Source: Terriglobia bacterium (lineage in GTDB: Bacteria > Acidobacteriota > Terriglobia > Terriglobales > Acidobacteriaceae). Taken from it: DNA of 57,796 bases. Positions 2,516-13,614 of this stretch are shown here, piece by piece (positions within the stretch are counted from its first letter, which is position 1; each line of letters begins with the position of its first letter). Below the pieces are notes generated by a model. That model was not told the origin of the DNA and made no database searches. It saw only the letters and a list, made by a program, of their open reading frames with translations. The stretch covers positions 1 to 57,796 of the forward strand of contig JAVUPY010000015.1 of assembly GCA_032252755.1 (NCBI GenBank), read 5' to 3'. The translations under genes and the position numbers were made by a program.

Positions 2516-3682
2516 ATGTCGCAAGATTCTCCCTCGAAGCTTCAATTGACGCTCGGCACAGGGGCATTCGCATTGTGCTTTGCTGTGTTTGGAACCATGT
2601 CGGCAATGATGCCAATACTGAGCAAGCAAATGCAGCTCAGTTCGGTCCAGAAGAGTATTGCCGTCGCTGTTCCGGTACTACTGGGAAGTTTAGGGCGCAT
2701 TCCGCTCGGTATGTTGACGGACCGATTTGGCGGACGTTTGGTGTTCAGCATCGTTATGGTGCTGTCGATTGTTCCAGCGTTTCTCATGGGATCGGTCCAG
2801 GATTACCCCCACCTGATCGCGTACGGTTTGTTGATTGGCATTGGACTCGCGAGTTTCTCGGTAGGCGTCGGATTCGTCAGCGGGTGGTATTCCGCTGAGA
2901 AGCAAGGATTCGCACTTGGCGTCTACGGTGCCGGCAATATCGGTCAATCGCTTGCTGCCTTTGGTTCGCCTTTCATCGCCGCCGCTGCAGGAGTGCGTTG
3001 GGGATTCTGGACATTCGGGATTCTGCTGAGCGTATGGCTCCTTATCTTCGTGGTGCTCGCACAGGACGCACCTCGTCGCACCGCGGCGAAGTCATTCGGC
3101 GAGATAATTCGCCCGCTCAATGACACTCGGAGCTGGGAACTCAGCCTGTTTTATTTCCTCACCTTCGGTGGATTTGTCGCCATGGCCATCTACCTGCCAA
3201 TCTTTCTTACGGAAACGTTCAGGCTGACTCCGCAGGATGCTGGAATGAGAACCGCGGGATTCGTGGTACTCGCAACGTTGATGCGTCCGATCGGCGGCAC
3301 CTTGGCAGATAAAATTGGCGGGCGTACGATTCTGAAGTGGGTGTTTCCCGCCGTTGCAGTGATGGCAGCATTTCTGGCCTGCCCAATGATCTCCACCTTC
3401 ACGATTGGGGCTCTCGGCATGGCAGCCGCCATTGGGTTGGGCAATGGAGCAGTGTTCAAGCTTCTGCCCGAGTATTTTCCCGCATCGGTGGGGAGTGTGA
3501 CGGGGTTGGTCGGGGCCGCTGGCGGCCTCGGCGGATTTTTCCCGCCATTGGTGCTCGGTTTCATTAAGGAAGAAACCGGTGGGTTTATGTGGGGCTTTGT
3601 TCTCCTTGGAGTATTCGCACTCATCTCTCTCGCCGTACTCCTTGGAAGACGCGCACCAGCAAAAAGTGTTATGACGGCGTAA
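2516..3682 (+). CDS. narK: NarK-type nitrate/nitrite transporter (MFS)
   Basis: A 388-residue major facilitator protein of the nitrate-nitrite porter family, predicted to carry nitrate in and/or nitrite out through the inner membrane. Twelve hydrophobic segments are visible. MFS motif A occurs in both halves ([10 protein letters not shown] near 65-74, [10 protein letters not shown] near 261-270). Arg61 (GRIPLG) and Arg257 (MRPIGG) match the two substrate-binding arginines of NarK, and the nitrate signature lies at about 309-340 ([26 protein letters not shown]). I start at 2516, where AGGA sits 5 nt before the ATG and the protein begins normally (MSQDSPSK); a longer GTG start at 2438 adds 26 atypical residues. 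First gene of the nitrate operon, 10 bp before the next gene. Confidence 0.9.
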
Positions 3683-3692
3683 TAGGAGGCGC

Positions 3693-4766
3693 ATGAAACC
3701 TGTTCCTGCAGCACGTGGTTCGGACACGGTACATGCGACAGTGTGGGGCTTGGTTGTCGCGTTCGTACTCATTGCTGGCATCGTGGTGGGGAGCCGCGGA
3801 TTGCGCGATTTCGATCCGGCACTTGTCTCCTACGCCGGTGCGACAGTGTTCGCCGGCTTTGGCATCGGGTACCGCTATGCCATGTGGCTGCGGCGGCCGC
3901 CAACGCGAATGTACTGGTATCGCGGATGGCAGATCTTTATCAAGCCGAAGAAACTCCTTGGCAACATTGGCCATCTGGGCCAGATCTTCTGGAACAACAT
4001 CCTCCTGCAACGCTTTATTGAGCGGCGGTCGAAGGTGCGCTGGACTGCGCACTGGTTCATAGCCTGGGGATGCCTGCTGGCAGCGGCAGTTACTTTTCCG
4101 CTCTCATTCGGATGGATTCGGTTCGAAACTGCGCGCGACACGCAGGACATTTACACCGCATTCGTGTTCGGCATTCACATGGGCAGCTTCCATCTCGGAA
4201 CTCCGGTCGCCGCTCTCGCATTCAACATCCTGGACATATCGGCGGTCATGGTGCTCATCGGCATCTTTTTCGCGATGTGGCGCCGCGGCCGGGATCACGG
4301 CGCAATGGCGGTGCAGCAGTTTTCAAGCGATCTCTTGCCTTTGATACTTCTGTTCTCAATATCGATTACGGGACTATTTCTCACGGCTTCCACGCACTTG
4401 ATGCGCGGACTTCATTATGTCGTTCTATCGCAAATCCACGCCGTCACCGTGATCATCACGTTGCTCTACTTGCCCTTCGGCAAGTTCTTCCATATCTTCC
4501 AGCGTCCTGCACAACTCGGAGTCGATTTCTATAAGCGGGCAGGCGAAGCTGGCGCCGAAGCTCTCTGCCTGCGCTGCGGCCAGCCGTATGGAACCAGGTT
4601 GCAGATGGATGACCTGAAGGATGTTCAATCTGCGCTCGCAATCAAGTATCAGATGGCGGACGGCACGCATTACCAGGACGTCTGTCCGGCATGCCGGCGC
4701 AAGAACCTGGCATTAACACAAGACGCATTGTGGAAGTCGCCGAACATAGAGTTGCGAGGGATCTGA
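3693..4766 (+). CDS. Haem-b-type membrane subunit with C-terminal zinc ribbon
   Basis: A 357-residue inner-membrane protein with about six hydrophobic helices and a soluble C-terminal tail. It recalls the NarI/DsrM-type membrane subunits that take electrons from quinol through b haems. His120 ([11 protein letters not shown]), His162, His241 and His249 lie in or next to helices and are candidate haem ligands. The tail has a CxxC...CxxC zinc ribbon (C292, C295, C331, C334). It sits between the transporter and the molybdoenzyme gene and ends 1 bp before the latter. Likely role (inference): the quinol-oxidising membrane anchor for the reductase. Databases sometimes call such proteins MFS transporters, but no MFS motif is seen. 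Confidence 0.75.
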
Positions 4767-4767
4767 T

Positions 4768-6990
4768 ATGGCGAAACTACCAACCGACATTCCAAGCATC
4801 GTGAAGGAGTTTGGGCCATCCCTGCATCGGGTTCCTCCCGGCGGGTGGGAGCATACCGGTGAAGACGACAAACTGGTGAAAACGCATTGCTGTTTCTGCG
4901 GACAGCAGTGCGGAATTGAGTTGCGAGTCCGCAACAACAAGGTCATCGGCTTCGAACCCTGGGAGGACTTCCCATTTAACAAGGGCAAGCTGTGTCCCAA
5001 GGGTGTCAAGCGCTACATGCAAGATGAGCATCCGGACCGCCTGAAAAGTCCTCTGCAGCGGGTGGAAGGCAAAGGCTATGAGCCGATTGACTGGGAAACC
5101 GCGTTGAGCCGCGTCGTGAGCGAGATCAAGCGCATCCAGCAGGCCTACGGCAACGATGCCTTCGCTTTTCTGACGGGTGCCTCGCTCACAAATGAGAAAG
5201 CGTACCTGATGGGAAAGTTCGCGCGCGTTGCGCTTCGAACTGCCAACATTGATTACAACGGGCGTCTTTGCATGGTCTCCGCCGGCGCGGCTTCGAAGAA
5301 AGTGTTCGGGATTGACCGAAGCGCGAATCCCTGGAGCGATATTCCAAAAGCAAAAGCCATTCTAGTTGCGGGAGCAAACGTCGCAGACTGCGCTCCAATC
5401 ACGACCGATTATCTCTGGCAGGCGCGTGAGAACGGCGGAAAGTTAATCGTGCTCGATCCGCGCATGACGCCGATTGCACGCAATGCGGACCTGTTCATTC
5501 CCGTTCGCTCCGGTGGAGACATCGGAATCTTCAACGGAATACTGCACATCATGATCGAGCGGGGCTGGATCGATCGGCAGTTCATCGCCGAACATACGAC
5601 CGGTTTCGATCAGGTGGTCGAGACCGTAAAGAAGTACACGCCTGAATACGCGGCGAAGATCGCAGGCGTGCCGCCCTCGATGATCGTGAAGGCGGCCGAA
5701 ATCTGGGGGCCCGCCCCGACCAGCTTCCTGCTCCACGCGCGCGGCATTGAACACCACACCAAAGGCGTGGACAACTGCATCGCCGCAATCAATCTCGTCA
5801 TTGCAAGCGGACGCATTGGGCGCGAGGGCTGCGGTTACGCCATGATCACCGGGCAAGGGAATGGTCAGGGCGCCCGAGAACAGGGCCAGAAGTGCGACCA
5901 ACTGCCGGGAATGCGAGACATTTCAAACCCCGAGCACCGCAAGTACATCGCGGGAGTATGGGGTGTGCCGGAGGAGTCGATTCCCGGCAAGGGACTCTCG
6001 GCCGTGCCGCTGATGGAAGCCATTCACGATGGGAAGATCAAAGGACTCATCTCTATCTGCTTTAATCCAACGGTTTCGCTTCCGGACGCGAACTATACCC
6101 GCGAGGCACTCAGCCGGCTCGAGTTCTACGCCAACATCGATTTCTTTCTCTCAGAAACGTCGCGATACGCTGACATCGTCCTCCCTGGTTCACTGATGGA
6201 GGAGGACGACGGCACGACAACCAACGTTGAAGGACGGGTGATCCGTCATCGCAAGGCCGTTACTCCGCCTGAAGGCGCGCGTGAAGATTGGAAGATCATC
6301 TGCGACATCGCGGCCCGCCTTGGGGTTCCGGAAAAGTTCAGTTACTCGTCTGCGCAGGATATCTTCGAGGAGTTGCGCATCGCATCAAAGGGCGGCATCT
6401 CCGACTATTACGGCATGACGTGGGAGCGTATCGAAGACAACAACGGGATATTCTGGCCATGCCCAGAGCCGGGACACCCCGGCACGCCTCGTCTTTACGA
6501 AGGTGGAGAGTTCGTCCATCCGGATGGAAAAGCGCACTTCATTCCGATTGAGTGGCGACCGTCCGCCGAAATGCCCGACGATGAGTATCCAATCATCCTA
6601 ACCACGGGTCGCGTAGTCTCACAGTTTTTGTCTGGTACGCAGACGCGCCGCATCGGAGGACTGGTCGACCAGTATCCCCAGCCGATGTGCGAAATGCACC
6701 CGCAATTGGCGGCCAAACTCGGTATTGCAGACGGTGATTTCGTTAAGGTCGAGAGCCGGCGGGGTCACGTCGTAGTTCGCGCGCAGGTGGTCAAGACTAT
6801 TCGGCCAGATACCGTTTTCGTGCCGTATCACTGGCCGCTGGATCGATCGGCAAACAACTGCACGATACGCGCAATCGATCCCGTGTCTAACATTCCGGAA
6901 TTCAAAATCTGCGCAGTACGGGTGAGCAAGACCGAGCAACCGACCGATCCGATTGCGCAGTTGGAAGTTCAGGCCGGGGGAGTTCGATGA
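4768..6990 (+). CDS. Molybdopterin nitrate reductase, NarB/NasC type
   Basis: A 740-residue enzyme of the bis-MGD molybdoprotein family. The N-terminal [4Fe-4S] site is C41-x2-C44-x3-C48-x27-C76, followed by the Lys of CPKG that usually bridges cluster and pterin. Cys168 in NGRLCMVSA sits at the position of the molybdenum-ligand cysteine of NapA and NarB. The C-terminal molydopterin dinucleotide-binding domain is intact ([17 protein letters not shown] to PEFKICAV). There is no Tat signal, so the enzyme should be cytoplasmic, unlike periplasmic NapA. With narK upstream and ferredoxin and Rieske genes downstream, nitrate is the most likely substrate; formate or another substrate cannot be excluded by motifs alone. 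It overlaps the next gene by 4 bp (ATGA). Confidence 0.85.
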
Positions 6991-7610
6991 GCGAGCGGTT
7001 TTTCTTCATCGACTACTCGCGGTGCATTGGCTGTCAGGCGTGCCTGCAGGCGTGTGCCGAGTGCGATACGCATCGCGGTACCAGCATGATCCACCTCGAG
7101 ACGATTCAGCGCAGAGACAGCGTGCAGACCGCTCCTCAAGTCTGCATGCACTGCGAAGATCCGATCTGCGCTCGCGTCTGCCCGGCCGACGCCATCAAGA
7201 AGACTCCCGACGGGGTTGTCCAGAGCTCGCTTAAGCCGCGCTGTATCGGATGCTCGAATTGTGTGGTCTCGTGTCCATTTGGTGTGCCCAAGTACATGGC
7301 GGAAATCGACCAGATGATGAAATGCGACATGTGTTACGACCGCACCAGCGTCGGCAAAGGGCCGATGTGCGCAACCGTCTGTCCTTCCGGCGCGCTGAAA
7401 TACACGACGATGGAAGAGATCCAGCGCACGCGTCGCGGAATTCCGATCAGTGCGTGGAAGTTTGGAAATGAGGAAGTAACGACCAAGGTTCATGTGATGG
7501 TTCCGCGCGAGGTGGAACGGGTAAACATCGATCTGGTGCAGATTGCGCCGACGCCGGCGCCTCTGCCGGAGGATTCCTATGACGTGGCGCTGATGTTGGA
7601 GGAGGTCTGA
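6987..7610 (+). CDS. Four-cluster ferredoxin subunit (NrfC/DmsB type)
   Basis: A 207-residue electron-transfer protein with sixteen cysteines arranged for four [4Fe-4S] clusters: C13/C16/C19/C23, C53/C56/C61/C65, C86/C89/C92/C96 and C113/C116/C128/C132. This is the arrangement of DmsB/NrfC/PsrB-type subunits, which wire a molybdoenzyme to a membrane quinol module. There is no signal peptide, consistent with a cytoplasmic partner for the molybdopterin subunit. It is translationally coupled on both sides: it starts inside the stop of the reductase gene, and its stop shares a base with the next start (TGATG). The last 60 residues lack cysteines and probably dock on a partner subunit. Confidence 0.9.
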
Positions 7611-8134
7611 TGAGCACAGACACGAAGAATCGCGAAACCTTTGCAGGGTGCGCGAAGACGCCGAAGTGGCGAACGGATTTTCCGATTGAATGGGAAGGCG
7701 ACCACTACGTCAGCCGCCGGGAGATGGTGAAATTCTTGACGCTTGGTTCGTTACTGCTCGCCGGCGCGAACTGGTTCACCGCATTCGCCTCGGGAATGCT
7801 TCGTAGGGGTTCGAACGCACAACGTTATATCGGTTCTGCAGCGAAGCTCGACGCTGCGGGGTACATTCTGTTTCGGTATCCGACGGACCGCGACCCGTGC
7901 ATCGCGGTGCGCTCGGCTGACGGTACTCTCCACGCATATTCGCAGGTCTGCACGCATCTCTCCTGCGCCGTCGTATTTAACGGGCAGGCAAACACGCTCG
8001 ATTGCCCCTGTCATAACGGCGTCTTCAGTGTTCAGGAGGGCCGCCCGATCGCTGGGCCGCCTCTGCGTCCGCTGCCCCGCGTTCGCTTACAACAAAGAGG
8101 CGATCAACTCTTCGCCACCGCGCTGGAGGTCTAG
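7610..8134 (+). CDS. Rieske iron-sulfur protein with Tat-like anchor
   Basis: A 174-residue Rieske protein. The [2Fe-2S] ligands are C114-T-H116 and C132-P-C-H135, and C119 and C134 form the disulfide pair typical of high-potential bc1-type Rieske proteins. Residues 35-62 (SRREMVKFL followed by a hydrophobic stretch) look like a Tat signal anchor, which would place the cluster domain outside the cytoplasm. It follows the ferredoxin gene with a one-base overlap and precedes a small membrane protein by 1 bp. The likely job is electron transfer between quinol and the membrane subunit. Its predicted outside location contrasts with the apparently cytoplasmic reductase, which is odd. Confidence 0.88.
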   Translation: MSTDTKNRETFAGCAKTPKWRTDFPIEWEGDHYVSRREMVKFLTLGSLLLAGANWFTAFASGMLRRGSNAQRYIGSAAKLDAAGYILFRYPTDRDPCIAVRSADGTLHAYSQVCTHLSCAVVFNGQANTLDCPCHNGVFSVQEGRPIAGPPLRPLPRVRLQQRGDQLFATALEV

Positions 8135-8135
8135 A

Positions 8136-8375
8136 ATGAGCATCCGAGAACAGGGAACAACTCTCTTTACCGCGATTCTGATTTTCGTCGCCGCAACGGT
8201 TGTGGTTCAACTTTGGCTGTTGACCGTTTCCATGGAGGCTCTGCTGGCAAGGGAACCAGGCATTCTGATTCCGAGCGCAATCGGCTCTACTGTGATGCTG
8301 ATCATCAATGCTGGACTCCTGAGATATGTGTTCCGATTCGACCAGGACGTGCAGAGATCGACGAATAATCAGTAA
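8136..8375 (+). CDS. Small two-helix membrane protein of the nitrate operon
   Basis: A 79-residue protein with two hydrophobic helices (about 9-33 and 46-66) and a short charged tail ending RFDQDVQRSTNNQ. A good ribosome-binding site (GGAGGT) precedes the ATG, which is 1 bp after the Rieske stop, so it is the last gene of the operon. From memory, small membrane proteins like this (DUF6755-type) accompany molybdoenzyme/Rieske gene sets; I cannot confirm this here. It may be an assembly or anchoring subunit. No catalytic residues are seen. Confidence 0.75.
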   Translation: MSIREQGTTLFTAILIFVAATVVVQLWLLTVSMEALLAREPGILIPSAIGSTVMLIINAGLLRYVFRFDQDVQRSTNNQ

Positions 8376-9028: not shown

Positions 9029-9105
9029 GGCCCTGTAGCTCAGATGGATAGAGCAGCGGTTTCCTAAACCGTTGGTCGGCAGTTCGACTCTGCCCAGGGC
9101 CTCCA
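9029..9105 (+). tRNA. tRNA-Arg (anticodon CCT)
   Basis: A complete cloverleaf: acceptor GGCCCTG/CAGGGCC (7 bp), D stem GCTC/GAGC, anticodon stem GCGGT/ACCGT with one G-U pair, anticodon loop TTCCTAA giving CCT (reads AGG, Arg), T stem GGCAG/CTGCC with loop TTCGACT. The 3' CCA is encoded (9103-9105). It converges with kdpC, whose stop is 2 bp away. No integrase or duplicated 3' end is seen nearby. Confidence 0.97.
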
Positions 9106-9107
9106 TC

Positions 9108-9704
9108 CTACTTGTGTGCTGCAGTCTGCCTGTTCAGCGGAAAACGCTTATCCAGTTCCAGATTCAGTTCCAGCAGGTTCACTCTCGGCTCGCCCAAGAC
9201 CCCGAACTGGCGTCCTTCTGTGTATTTTGCGACCAGGGATTTCAATTGACCGACAGTTATTCCACGCTGTTGCGCAACGCGGGCCAATTGATACTCGGCC
9301 GCTGCGGGGGTGATGTTGGGATCAATACCGGAAGCAGAGGTGGTTACGAGATCAATTGGAACCGGTTGGCCCGGATTTTGCGCCTGGAACTCGGTGACGT
9401 CCTGACGCACACGATTAATGAGTTTCCGATTTGTGGGCCCAAGGTTCGATCCCCCAGAGTTCGCGGCATTGTAACCATTGCCCGCAGCTGAGGGTCGCGA
9501 ATCGAAGTAGCCGGGCCCAGAGAATCCCTGGCCGATAATCCTGAAACCAACAAGCCGTCCGCCTCTCTTGATAAGTTGTCCATTCGCCTGATCTGGAAAT
9601 ACAACCTGCGCAATACCGGTTACAACAAGCGGATAAATGACTCCGAGCAGGATGGTAGTGGCGATAGTCATGAGTACGGCCGTGATCAGGTTCTTTTTCA
9701 GCAT
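9108..9704 (-). CDS. kdpC: Potassium-transporting ATPase subunit KdpC
   Basis: A 198-residue subunit of the Kdp potassium pump that stabilises the KdpFABC complex at the membrane. One N-terminal transmembrane helix (LITAVLMTIATTILLGVIYPLVVTG) is followed by the conserved periplasmic domain (GFSGPGYFDSRPSA, GGSNLGPTN, DLVTTSASGIDPNI, ARVAQQRG, GVLGEPRVNLLELN). I start at the ATG at 9702-9704 behind GAGGA; an upstream start at 9719 would add five residues inside the kdpB end. It is the last gene of the kdp operon, overlapping nothing but running up to the tRNA. Confidence 0.95.
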   Translation of the reverse strand: MLKKNLITAVLMTIATTILLGVIYPLVVTGIAQVVFPDQANGQLIKRGGRLVGFRIIGQGFSGPGYFDSRPSAAGNGYNAANSGGSNLGPTNRKLINRVRQDVTEFQAQNPGQPVPIDLVTTSASGIDPNITPAAAEYQLARVAQQRGITVGQLKSLVAKYTEGRQFGVLGEPRVNLLELNLELDKRFPLNRQTAAHK

Positions 9705-9711
9705 AATTTCC

Positions 9712-11808
9712 TCACACAAGACCCACGCGAGTGATGATCATGTCGATCAGCTTGATTCCAATGAACGGGACGATGATGCCGCCGGCTCCATAGATCAGCA
9801 GGTTCCTGCGCAACAGGGCCGCAGCGGAAAGAGCCCGGTATCTGACTCCCCGCAATGCGAGCGGGATCAGAAAGATGATCACCAGCGCATTGAAGATCAC
9901 GGCGGAGAGAATCGCGGATTGCGGCGTCTGCAAGCGCATTATGTTCAGAGTGTTCAGTACCGGAAAAGTTCCCGCGAACATCGCCGGGATAATCGCGAAG
10001 TACTTCGCAACATCATTCGCGATTGAGAAGGTAGTCAGTGAACCGCGCGTCATCAGCAGTTGCTTTCCGATTTCAACTATTTCGATAAGCTTGGTCGGGT
10101 TCGAATCGAGATCGACCATATTCCCGGCTTCCTTGGCGGCCTGGGTGCCGGTATTCATCGCGACGCCGACGTCGGCTTGCGCCAGGGCAGGGGCATCGTT
10201 GGTACCGTCACCGGTCATGGCAACGAGCTTGCCGTCGGCCTGTTCTTTTTTGATCAGCTCCATTTTGTCCTTGGGGGTTGCCTGGGCAAGGAAATCATCC
10301 ACGCCAGCTTCACGCGCGATTGCCGCGGCGGTCAGCGGATTGTCCCCGGTGATCATGACCGTTCGAATCCCGATCGCACGAAGCTGATCGAACCGGTCCC
10401 GCATTCCACCTTTGACAATGTCTTTCAACTCGATTACCCCAAGGGCGCCACGCTTTCTTTCAGCAACGACCAACGGGGTACCACCCGCGCGAGAAATTTC
10501 CTCGACCGTTGCCCGTAGGTCCTCGGGCGTTGCGCCGCCGTTTTGGGAGACGTAAGCTGCAATGGCGTCGGTCGCACCTTTCCGAATCTCGAACCCGTTC
10601 AGATCAACGCCGGACATGCGGCTTTGTGCGCTGAACGGGACGAAGTGGGCTTCGTGTGCCCCCAATTCCCGGCCGCGCAGACCGTACTTGTCCTTTGCGA
10701 GAACCACGATCGAGCGACCCTCGGGAGTTTCGTCGGCCAAGGACGAAAGCTGCGCGGCATCCGCCAGTTCCTGTTCGGTGACGCCCGGCGCCGGAATGAA
10801 CCGTGACGCCTGCCGGTTACCGAGAGTGATGGTCCCAGTTTTGTCCAACAACAACGTATTCACGTCGCCAGCAGCTTCCACGGCGCGTCCGGACGTGGCC
10901 AGCACGTTATGCTGAATCAATCGATCCATTCCGGCGATTCCAATTGCGGAAAGCAACCCTCCAATTGTGGTCGGAATCAGGCAGACGAGCAGCGAAACCA
11001 ACACGAATACCGTCTGTGGTGACCCTGAATAGATTGCGAATGGCTGAAGTGTTACCACGGCCAGCAGAAAGATGATTGTTAAACCGGCCAGCAGAATGTT
11101 GAGTGCGATTTCGTTCGGTGTTTTCTGTCGTTCGGCGCCTTCCACCAGCGCGATCATGCGGTCCAAAAAGGTCTCACCAGGGTTAGAGGTGATCTTCACC
11201 TTGATTCGATCCGACAGCACACGAGTTCCGCCGGTCACGGCTGAACGATCCCCGCCGGCCTCGCGAATTACCGGCGCAGATTCTCCCGTAATTGCGGATT
11301 CATCGACTGACGCCACGCCCTCGATGATTTCGCCGTCAGAAGGAATGAACTCTCCTGCCGAGACGTAGCAAAGATCGTTTGCTTTCAGCTTCGAACTCGG
11401 GACACGCTCTACCTGACCGTTCGCAAGAATTCGGTTCGCTATTGTTTCCGAGCGGGCTCGTCGGAGCGTATCTGCCTGCGCTTTGCCGCGTCCTTCCGCC
11501 ATAGCTTCCGCGAAATTTGCAAACAATACCGTAAACCACAGCCAAAGCGTTATCTGCAAATCGAAGATGAATGCAGGTCCACCCCTGAACAGAAGTGTGG
11601 TGGTGATCACACTTCCAATTTCAACGACGAACATGACCGGGTTGCCCATCATCTTTCGCGGATTCAGCTTTACGAACGCGTCGAGAATCGCGCGCCGGAC
11701 GATCTTCCATTCCCAGATTGCCTTCTTCTGTGAGGGCTTCATGGGCGAGTGGCCAACCCGAAATGTTGCGACGTTCGCCAGAATTGGTGGTTGCGTTGTG
11801 GGTGCCAT
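9712..11808 (-). CDS. kdpB: Potassium-transporting P-type ATPase subunit KdpB
   Basis: A 698-residue P-type ATPase that drives high-affinity potassium uptake. The phosphorylation motif DKTGT is present, with the actuator loop ITGESAPV, the nucleotide-binding motif region (KGATDAI), and the hinge motif [17 protein letters not shown]. Seven membrane segments are expected and the hydrophobic blocks fit. The N-terminus is about 20 residues longer than the E. coli protein, but AGAGGA in front of this ATG supports the start. It lies between kdpA (9-bp gap) and kdpC. The enzyme acts in the inner membrane with KdpA, KdpC and KdpF. Confidence 0.97.
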
Positions 11809-11817
11809 ATGAATCCT

Positions 11818-13614
11818 CTAGAAGGTCTTCCCAGCCGCCATGAGCAGGTGCTCCAAGATGGGTCCAAGGCTAAGGGCCGGGAAGAATGTAAGTGCGCCGA
11901 TGATCACAATCGTGCCTATCAGCAGTACTGTGAATAACGGTGTGGTCACCGGGAATGTTCCTGAAGATGGCGGAACGTACCTCTTTTCCGCGAGATTGCC
12001 GGCGATTGCCAGCATCGGAATGATCATCAGGAAGCGGCCGACCAGCATCGTGATCCCGCCCGCGACGTTGTACCAGAGCGTGTTCGTTGTTAGCCCGGCA
12101 AATGCGGAGCCGTTATTGCCGGCCTGCGACGTAAACGCATACAAGATTTCCGTCAGCCCGTGCGGCCCCGGATTCAATATGCTCGATGTGCCGAAGCCCT
12201 TCACCACCGAGATCGCCGAGAAGACGAGAATCACGACTGGAAACACCAGCGTGACCAGCATTGCCATTTTTACGTCATAGGACTCGATTTTCTTTCCGAG
12301 ATACTCCGGCGTTCGTCCTACCATGAGTCCGGCGATGAAGACGGCGAGCACGATATAAATCAGCATTCCATACATGCCGGCGCCCACTCCGCCGAAGATC
12401 ACCTCGCTCAGCATGATGTTGACCAGAGGTACCATGCCGCCAATCGGGGTGAACGAGTCATGCCAGCTATTGATGGCCCCGCAGCTCGCGTCCGTAGTAA
12501 CAGTGGCCCAGAGCGCACTGTTGGCGATGCCAAAGCGGACCTCTTTGCCTTCCATATTTCCGCCGGCCTGCAGGGCGCTCACGTGTTGATCGGTTTCGGT
12601 TAGAAGGGGATTGCCCTGCGCTTCCGCCCAGTAAGCTACCGACACTCCCACCAGGAAGAGAATCGCCATGGCGGACCAAACTGCCCAACCGTGCTTTTGC
12701 GATCCCGTCATTCTTCCCAGCGTGTACGTCAATCCGCTGCCAATCGCGAATATTGAAACCAGTTCAAACAGGTTCGTGAATGGCGTGGGATTTTCAAACG
12801 GGTGCGCACTGTTCGCATTGAAGAAACCGCCGCCGTTGGTGCCAAGTTCCTTGATGATCTCCTGCGAAGCTACAGGACCTTGAGCAATGGTCTGATCCTT
12901 TACGGTTTTCATGACAGGGTTACCGTCCGGGCCGACCATTGGCTTACCATCGGCATCCGTCTTCTGTGCCTGCATCGGTTGAACAAGTTTCACAGTGTCA
13001 TACGGCCTGAGGTTCTGCACGACTCCCTGTGAAACAAGAACGAGCGCACCAACCACGCAAAGCGGCAACAGAATCCAGAGGCAGCAGCGTACGAGATCGA
13101 CCCAGAAATTACCGATGGTCTTCATCTGACGGCGCGCGATGCCACGAATGAACGCGATCGCGAGGATGATGCCTACCGCAGCCGACATGAAGTTGTGGTA
13201 CGCGAGACCGGCCATCTGAGTGAAGTAGCTCATGGTGGCTTCCCCGCTATAGTTCTGCCAGTTCGTGTTCGTCGTGAACGATGCCGCCGTGTTAAACGCG
13301 AGCGCGGAAGTCACAGCCCCAAAATGCTGTGGATTGAAGGGCAGATAGAACTGCAGGCGCTCTATTGCGTAAAGCACGAGCATTGACACGACGCTGAACA
13401 ACAACATCGCGGCCGCATACTCCGTCCAGCGCATCTCGCGATCTTCATCGACACGCGTCACGCGATAGAACAGCTTCTCTATTGGACGCAGCGCGGGATC
13501 CATGAACGTTCGCTCGCGGTTGAACACGCGAGTCATGAATGCGCCGAGCGGCTTGGTTACGGCGAGCACCAGGGAGAGAAACAGCAAAATTTGAAACCAT
13601 CCGTTGGCCGTCAT
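11818..13614 (-). CDS. kdpA: Potassium-binding channel subunit KdpA
   Basis: A 598-residue inner-membrane subunit that forms the potassium pathway of the Kdp pump. The four selectivity-filter loops of the MPM superfamily are recognisable: NTAASFTTNTNWQNYSGE, GTNGGGFFNANSAHPFENPT, TDASCGAINSWHDSF and TSQAGNNGSAFAGL. About ten transmembrane helices are visible and the length fits the family. The last base of its ATG abuts the stop of kdpF, so the two are translationally linked. It is followed by kdpB after 9 bp. Confidence 0.97.
   Translation of the reverse strand: MTANGWFQILLFLSLVLAVTKPLGAFMTRVFNRERTFMDPALRPIEKLFYRVTRVDEDREMRWTEYAAAMLLFSVVSMLVLYAIERLQFYLPFNPQHFGAVTSALAFNTAASFTTNTNWQNYSGEATMSYFTQMAGLAYHNFMSAAVGIILAIAFIRGIARRQMKTIGNFWVDLVRCCLWILLPLCVVGALVLVSQGVVQNLRPYDTVKLVQPMQAQKTDADGKPMVGPDGNPVMKTVKDQTIAQGPVASQEIIKELGTNGGGFFNANSAHPFENPTPFTNLFELVSIFAIGSGLTYTLGRMTGSQKHGWAVWSAMAILFLVGVSVAYWAEAQGNPLLTETDQHVSALQAGGNMEGKEVRFGIANSALWATVTTDASCGAINSWHDSFTPIGGMVPLVNIMLSEVIFGGVGAGMYGMLIYIVLAVFIAGLMVGRTPEYLGKKIESYDVKMAMLVTLVFPVVILVFSAISVVKGFGTSSILNPGPHGLTEILYAFTSQAGNNGSAFAGLTTNTLWYNVAGGITMLVGRFLMIIPMLAIAGNLAEKRYVPPSSGTFPVTTPLFTVLLIGTIVIIGALTFFPALSLGPILEHLLMAAGKTF

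Follow-up and report, generated by a model that had tools for sequence, protein, structure and literature searches.

A candidate quinol:nitrate oxidoreductase of mixed descent, combining a NasC-type reductase, a NarI-fold cytochrome and a Rieske protein, in Acidobacteriota and other phyla

Which function brings a NasC-type nitrate reductase together with a membrane cytochrome and a Rieske protein? The question is raised by an operon at positions 2516-8375 of contig JAVUPY010000015.1 (assembly GCA_032252755.1) from a Terriglobia bacterium of the Acidobacteriaceae, whose 57,796 nucleotides, analysed as a whole, are called the window below. We propose that the operon encodes a membrane-bound respiratory quinol:nitrate oxidoreductase of mixed descent, a reading to which we give a probability of about 0.6. 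In this enzyme, NarK would import nitrate and export nitrite, on the outer side of the membrane the NarI-fold cytochrome would oxidise (mena)quinol, and a b haem on the cytoplasmic side (H120/H267) would carry electrons to the four-cluster ferredoxin, from which a cytoplasmic NasC would draw them to reduce nitrate to nitrite. The Rieske protein, held outside by its twin-arginine translocation (Tat) helix beside the quinol site, would accept one electron of each quinol at a low Rieske potential and either hand it to an acceptor in the periplasm or return it to the complex, and the DUF6755 protein would be a small membrane subunit.

Operon layout and spread across phyla

Six + strand genes lie within 5.9 kb. 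The first, narK (2516-3682), encodes a nitrate/nitrite transporter of the major facilitator superfamily (MFS) by its best family (TIGR00886, 211 bits, below the cut-off of 311.7) and is followed by genes for a putative quinol-oxidising b-type cytochrome with a C-terminal four-Cys zinc ribbon (3693-4766) and for a NasC-type nitrate reductase predicted to hold a bis-molybdopterin guanine dinucleotide (bis-MGD) cofactor and an N-terminal [4Fe-4S] cluster (4768-6990; NF047855, 819 bits, below the cut-off of 1100). Downstream are encoded a four-cluster ferredoxin, a presumed electron relay of the DmsB/NarH type (6987-7610; dmsB family, 98.7 bits, below the cut-off of 214.1), with 17 Cys residues and four cluster motifs read by eye, a membrane-anchored Tat-type Rieske [2Fe-2S] protein (7610-8134; Pfam Rieske, 43.6 bits, above cut-off) and a small DUF6755 membrane protein with two helices read by eye (8136-8375; PF20540, 67.6 bits, cut-off 27). 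Family names rest on Pfam and NCBIfam profile searches, those of NarK, NasC and dmsB falling short of curated cut-offs. From narK to the DUF6755 gene the intergenic spacing is 10, 1, -4, -1 and 1 bases, and coupled translation of the last five genes is likely because they are one base apart or overlap. These six forward frames, no more than 10 bases apart and now named by search, bear out the operon that the initial annotation had read from the letters alone. Its view that the layout is not that of Nar, Nap or Nas also holds: the NarG family (TIGR01580) reaches 55 bits against a cut-off of 1084 and NAPA 280 against 930, and the six genes include neither a nap gene nor one for a siroheme nitrite reductase.

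The same gene order, which the initial annotation had suggested looking for in Acidobacteria and other phyla, is indeed widespread. The cytochrome, NasC, ferredoxin and Rieske genes stand together on one strand in 106 of 119 loci analysed, in this order in 102 and with ferredoxin and Rieske first in 4; at the remaining 13, the contig edge falls on the side of the missing gene, as read from ranges. In 93/106 loci a DUF6755 match is no more than 500 bases from the Rieske gene, and a NarK match is in view at 60/106, on the same strand in 57. Furthermore, narK and the cytochrome gene share one reading frame in 22/117 loci (three of these below full length), an arrangement that links the cytochrome with nitrate transport and favours an active site on the cytoplasmic side. 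The locus sets overlap, so that these counts are not independent. Apparent fusions of NasC with ferredoxin (L058, L061), of ferredoxin with Rieske and of Rieske with the DUF protein were dropped, their upstream extensions being in a different frame.

Within the host phylum, DUF6755 is found in 40 of 297 genomes, as against 0 of 14 control genomes. Thirty matching loci were returned, one being the window's own, and the Rieske gene adjoins in 30/30 and the ferredoxin gene in 29/30, the sole locus without a ferredoxin in view (L018) stopping at a contig edge; the other ten positive genomes were assigned by gene map in four cases (G065, G123, G152, G287) and only by an adjoining match to NasC or a molybdoenzyme in six. 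An alignment search with the cytochrome in a named genome collection yielded at least 535 stretches encoding a relative. Among the best 80, which were fetched, the closest named relatives are Acidobacteriaceae, and the carriers include Acidobacteriota, Anaeromyxobacter oryzae, Sorangium cellulosum, Polyangium, Phycisphaerales, Roseimaritima, Armatimonadetes and Herpetosiphon; Edaphobacter aggregans DSM 19364, also in this set, and A. oryzae are cultured carriers. Taken together, named carriers include Acidobacteriota, Planctomycetota, Myxococcota, Armatimonadota, Herpetosiphon and Deinococcus plasmids, and the six-gene set is carried by bacteria of several phyla, in many cases soil bacteria. 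Four Deinococcus plasmid records match the cytochrome, and the three that were read (L187, L188, L189) have the full gene order under general labels, with 'MFS transporter' for the cytochrome and 'molybdopterin oxidoreductase family', 'Rieske domain-containing', DUF6755 or hypothetical for the rest. On these three large plasmids the operon has an extra small hypothetical gene ahead of the cytochrome gene and a GAF-domain gene afterwards.

Catalytic subunit, cytochrome and Rieske protein

NasC proteins from operon loci carry, in 110/110 sequences, four N-terminal cluster cysteines, the Mo-ligand Cys168 followed by Met169, and Arg370. The Cys168-Met169 pair is as in NapA and unlike FdhF, whose own residues are missing from all 110 proteins: no His follows the ligand, and position 361 is Thr (100) or Val (10), never Arg. 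A formate dehydrogenase, or an enzyme with a substrate other than nitrate, would account for the best solved sequence match, which is the FdhF subunit of the hydrogen-dependent CO2 reductase (HDCR). Against this stand the higher score of the NasC model (819 bits versus 640 for formate dehydrogenase), the NarK encoded in the operon and the active-site residues, on which we rejected a formate dehydrogenase identity; such an activity is extremely improbable. An orthologous operon already characterised with another substrate was also sought, and none occurs among the literature matches listed.

A search of 199 genomes with the NasC model yielded 32 matches that score 763-906 bits, all short of the cut-off of 1100, and beyond a gap the rest score 602 or less. 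Three of the 32 lie outside the operon, two with NirB nearby (L220, L221) and one (L224) at a locus with neither the cytochrome nor the Rieske gene. With E. coli NapA and FdhF as its root, a tree has the 110 operon sequences in one clade and the three outsiders in another, with support of 1.0 each, a split that rests on a thin sample of outside sequences. A loose RR pattern occurs in 2 of 109 NasC N-termini, so that no twin-arginine signal is present (Sec signals were not searched); this agrees with the reductase without a signal peptide of the initial annotation, and NasC is probably cytoplasmic.

For the cytochrome, Pfam yields no match and NCBIfam only weak ones (QmoC, 29 of 300 bits); a bc-type cytochrome b family was likewise not matched in Pfam or NCBIfam by the membrane protein of the operon. 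VIA structural alignment of the AlphaFold2 (AF2) model of the cytochrome, which has a mean predicted local distance difference test score (pLDDT) of 88.1, places EtfD first (Z 11.0) and eight NarI entries next (Z 9.8-10.3), over 169-186 residues; the following rows are at Z 6.9 or below, and a NarI fold is supported by the model. In a profile comparison, part of the chain only (residues 184-273) pairs with NarI (probability 61, E 8e-5), H249 falling on NarI H187 and H267 on NarI H205, and three MAFFT modes give the same two pairs. The NarI-like subunit with a zinc ribbon that had been annotated is thereby supported; the four ribbon cysteines are present in 114/114 sequences. A HycF-like identity of this ribbon was tried and rejected (Z 6.0 over 52 residues, yet a sequence E of 8.1).

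The only invariant histidines of the cytochrome are H120, H249 and H267 (114/114), as compared with the four haem histidines of NarI, which we take to be H56, H66, H187 and H205. Just one of three alignments pairs H120 with H56, and the NarI counterpart of H120 is ambiguous. Since the second helix of NarI has two invariant histidines (7/7) and the comparable helix of the cytochrome one, at most one ordinary bis-His haem is expected. C127 was considered as the missing ligand; it is found in 34/34 sequences of a first alignment and in 111/114 of a larger one (T, T and S otherwise) and is not obligate. Near the outer face, the invariant D41, Y47, T134, P136, W141 and H249 resemble a quinol site. 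The cytochrome may not oxidise quinol in the way that NarI does, because three rather than four histidines are invariant and the Rieske protein lacks both potential-raising residues.

The twin arginine of the Rieske protein is kept in 103/103 sequences, in support of its initial description as Tat-type, and the ligands and disulphide cysteines C114, H116, C119, C132, C134 and H135 in 104/104, with cluster cysteines of the bc type. The model has a mean pLDDT of 88.6, and the nearest solved relatives, by sequence and by fold, are AioB subunits. While the head is probably outside, the N-terminal tail ahead of the Tat motif (window 7667-7720), which carries a conserved W-x(3)-F motif (W20 in 94/101, F24 in 100/101), should stay inside and perhaps serves for docking or proofreading at the cytoplasmic face. 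Gly occupies the place of the potential-raising Ser in 104/104 sequences and Phe that of the Tyr in 103/104 (one X). In yeast, such Ser and Tyr changes lower the Rieske potential by 130 and 65 mV, roughly additively (PMC12954380; articles are cited here and below from parts of their text). By analogy, a potential near +100 mV, which would suit menaquinol, is a fair guess, and a weak one because the same article reports a Rieske protein with Phe yet a high potential.

As for the sidedness of the complex, the initial annotation had put the reductase inside and the Rieske domain outside. The Tat motif and the net loop charge agree with it, the latter (+8.2, +2.0 and +1.6 for loops 2, 4 and the C-terminus; 0.1, -0.8 and +0.6 for loops 1, 3 and 5) favouring an inside position of the zinc ribbon and of the H120/H267 end; the topology is itself a prediction, from loops that differ much in length. 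NasC and ferredoxin might instead hitchhike on the Rieske Tat signal, as AioA does with AioB, to give a periplasmic nitrate reductase. The AioB kinship of the Rieske protein, the Tat leader of AioB (PMC3758308), the proposed descent of AioA from the NasC/NasA lineage (PMC7331816) and the fact that loop charges by themselves do not settle topology lend this some appeal; the fusion of NarK to the cytochrome and the inside placement of the ribbon by net charge oppose it, and we consider export very improbable.

In one genome (G255), a canonical NarI is fused C-terminally to a twin-arginine helix and a bc-type Rieske domain (L178:3816-5120, - strand), with narH and narJ alongside, and a second locus (L227; G303:C3:45986-47239) matches it at 58% over both the NarI and the Rieske parts. 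This fusion occurs in 2/30 genomes of the host phylum with any match and supports, without proving, a joint function of Rieske and NarI-type cytochrome. Cytochrome c was tried as a core partner and rejected: an open reading frame (ORF) with two or more CxxCH motifs lies on the same strand within 3 kb in 3/106 loci, and one with exactly one CxxCH in 5, while no cytochrome c1 or f is encoded among the six genes. Two of the three loci (L050, L223) have a same-strand, NrfHA-like ORF pair with five and four CxxCH, the larger ORF matching NrfA.

Both quinol electrons could pass via the cytochrome to NasC by a linear, NarGHI-like route, leaving the Rieske protein as a structural, regulatory or sensing accessory. 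The NarI fold, the combination of ferredoxin and molybdoenzyme as in Nar-type chains and the lack of a cytochrome c partner for the Rieske protein, judged by those 3/106 loci, fit such a route. We nonetheless judge it unlikely, given the fully conserved Rieske ligands and disulphide cysteines, which imply that a redox role is kept, the fusion of canonical NarI to a Rieske domain in two genomes and the missing NarI haem histidine. A more specific form of our proposal, tentative and on the whole doubtful, is an electron-bifurcating nitrate reductase, in which a Qo-like site of the NarI-fold cytochrome and the low-potential Rieske protein would split each menaquinol's electrons, one being taken by the Rieske protein for a periplasmic acceptor while the other crosses the membrane to reach NasC in the cytoplasm. 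The complex would then be a complex III/Nar hybrid that arose outside both families, with the [2Fe-2S] cluster replacing the outer haem of NarI.

Genome context and weighing of the respiratory reading

The host genome (estimated at 99.98% completeness and 3.03% contamination) has no NarG (best 39 of 1084 bits), no NapA at E<=1e-60 and no NrfA over cut-off, and it encodes a copper nitrite reductase, NirK, over cut-off. No assimilatory siroheme nitrite reductase was found in it, its two NIR_SIR matches being dsrA and dsrB, over their cut-offs. The host is thus dsr-bearing, and contig G000:C17 carries dsrA and dsrB, over NCBIfam cut-offs, followed by a gene for an NAD(P)-binding protein (L171:4081-6362), as well as a further molybdoenzyme pair, PhsA-like and TtrB/NrfC-like, both below cut-offs (L172:6905-9858). 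Among the 40 genomes with DUF6755, matches exceed the cut-off for NarG in 10, for NapA in 2 and for NirK in 2; NIR_SIR is matched in 17, in two of them as DsrAB. Half of the 40, the host included, have no NarG, no NapA and no NIR_SIR other than DsrAB, and 11 of these 20 have NrfA.

An assimilatory nitrate reductase supplied with membrane-derived electrons would be in keeping with the family name of the catalytic subunit, assimilatory NasC, and with the NIR_SIR matches beyond DsrAB in 15 of the 40 positive genomes. It has little probability in our view: the host and the other genomes of that half lack siroheme nitrite reductases other than DsrAB along with NarG and NapA, two genomes (G123, G162) each have a NasC with NirB nearby in addition to the separate complex, which suggests a division of labour, and genes of nitric oxide (NO) stress recur near the operon, as judged from neighbour families. 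These families were collected within 6 kb of the operon over 114 mapped loci, each being named from one representative. They include the FeS-repair protein RIC (22), Crp/Fnr regulators (21), TDT-type transporters (12), NnrS-like proteins (10, below the Pfam cut-off), an ATP-binding cassette (ABC) ATPase near several families including ModC (7), TIGR04053 radical SAM proteins (7), YwiC (7), HPP (6) and Rrf2 (6).

NrfA (E<1e-100) is found in 26/40 positive genomes as against 45/257 others (Fisher p 2e-9, relatedness ignored). This enrichment, the position of the Rieske protein on the positive (P) side and the need of Streptomyces Nar1 for the bcc-aa3 complex (PMC7931247) are what one would expect if the Rieske protein traded electrons with periplasmic cytochromes c, so that the complex linked the P-side cytochrome pool to nitrate and was not a pure quinol oxidase. 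No cytochrome c recurs beside the operon, however, and the invariant outer-face residues of the cytochrome look like a quinol site, which leaves this periplasmic port with a low probability. The genome context points to respiration. This context, the spread over several phyla and the NarK-cytochrome fusions go beyond the initial annotation, which is partly supported as a whole, its quinol-cycle-like arrangement standing as a conjecture.

Several observations weigh against a respiratory quinol:nitrate oxidoreductase. Foldseek with the cytochrome model gave no match at E<=0.001, a result that alone would not support a NarI fold; the Z scores of about 10, at 4.6-5.8 Å, are within the range where the tool warns about helical bundles, and NarI reaches a probability of just 9 when the profiles are aligned globally. 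One haem histidine of NarI is without a counterpart, which makes the electron path from the outer face uncertain, and the charge signal is weaker per residue, the inside loops having 47, 13 and 31 residues and the outside ones 8, 32 and 6. A NarK match is out of view in 46/106 loci, and DUF6755 undercounts carriers, two genomes (G076, G226) having the operon without a DUF6755 match. NirK and dsrAB of the host sit on contigs other than that of the operon, in an assembly with an estimated 3% contamination. The NIR_SIR matches beyond DsrAB in the 15 positive genomes are mostly not told apart from sulphite reductases and make assimilation possible there, and the NrfA association (12/23 genera) is uncorrected for relatedness. 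Several carriers are usually called aerobes. Directly upstream of the operon, no FNR box was found near 2400-2515 at up to two mismatches, and the window total of 19 shows no excess over the 21.7 expected.

Relation to known systems and flanking DNA

E. coli NarGHI shares with the operon a molybdoenzyme, a four-cluster ferredoxin, a NarI-fold membrane cytochrome and an adjoining NarK. The operon differs by its NasC-type rather than NarG subunit, by three invariant histidines instead of four and by the added zinc ribbon, Rieske protein and DUF6755 protein, and narJ is not among its six genes. With cytochrome bc1/b6f and other Rieske/cytochrome b complexes it has in common a Tat-type P-side Rieske protein, with disulphide-bearing cluster loops, next to a membrane b cytochrome, which is here of the NarI fold, and no cytochrome c1 or f belongs to the set. 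To our knowledge, arsenite oxidase AioBA has no membrane cytochrome. AioBA provides the Rieske subunit nearest in sequence and fold, and its AioA is placed beside NasC/NasA, while the enzyme is periplasmic, works in the opposite direction and has Mo without an amino-acid ligand (PMC7331816).

By its best family match, which is below the cut-off, the catalytic subunit resembles B. subtilis and Paracoccus NasC. In Paracoccus, the Rieske-type NasG/NirD accompanies NasC, as a Rieske protein does here, but NasG relays electrons from the NADH-dependent NasB to NasC (PMC3475470), whereas the operon encodes a membrane cytochrome, a four-cluster ferredoxin and a Tat-type Rieske protein instead. The haloarchaeal nar operon (NarB Rieske, NarC b cytochrome, NarGH) likewise joins a nitrate reductase to a Rieske protein and a membrane b cytochrome (PMC7754194, PMC4683180), and Q-cycle coupling has been proposed for it; unlike the complex proposed here, its NarGH is outside, and its NarC is said not to be a NarI homologue (PMC7754194). 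According to the relevant passages of Wells 2020, no member of the NasA/NasC, AioA and NapA clade goes with canonical four-cluster or membrane-anchor subunits (PMC7331816); judged by its gene content, the operon is an exception to this statement, and it may also be one to the later statement that NasC/NasA serves assimilation only (PMC10100899). The cited part of Eichorst 2018 mentions two Acidobacteria, Granulicella mallensis MP5ACTX8 and Acidobacteria bacterium KBS 96, that were reported to reduce nitrate and in whose genomes nasA-type genes but no dissimilatory nitrate reductase were seen (PMC5900883), and in wastewater metagenome-assembled genomes (MAGs) of the phylum narGHI is noted in 15 and nrfAH in 23 (PMC8100337). 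Rieske proteins are treated as Tat substrates in PMC5449189, the main text of which does not mention NarI. The operon itself is not described among the literature matches listed, subscription literature being mostly outside the search. Nitrate respiration may thus go unnoticed in present gene surveys, because a candidate present in several phyla hides under general names and its enzyme is filed as assimilatory. For Acidobacteria that lack a recognised dissimilatory reductase yet reduce nitrate (PMC5900883), the operon is a lead open to testing, and it gives a new setting in which to study the role of a Rieske protein beside a NarI-type cytochrome.

As for the flanking DNA, the window holds 2 promoter-like sites where 3.2 are expected and 14 terminator-like sites where 6.2 are expected, none of the latter being listed right after position 8375. 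A tRNA-like stretch at 9031-9102 (+ strand), seen by eye, lies between the operon and kdpC, kdpB and kdpA, which follow in a row at 9108-13614 on the - strand, as read by eye from the ORFs.

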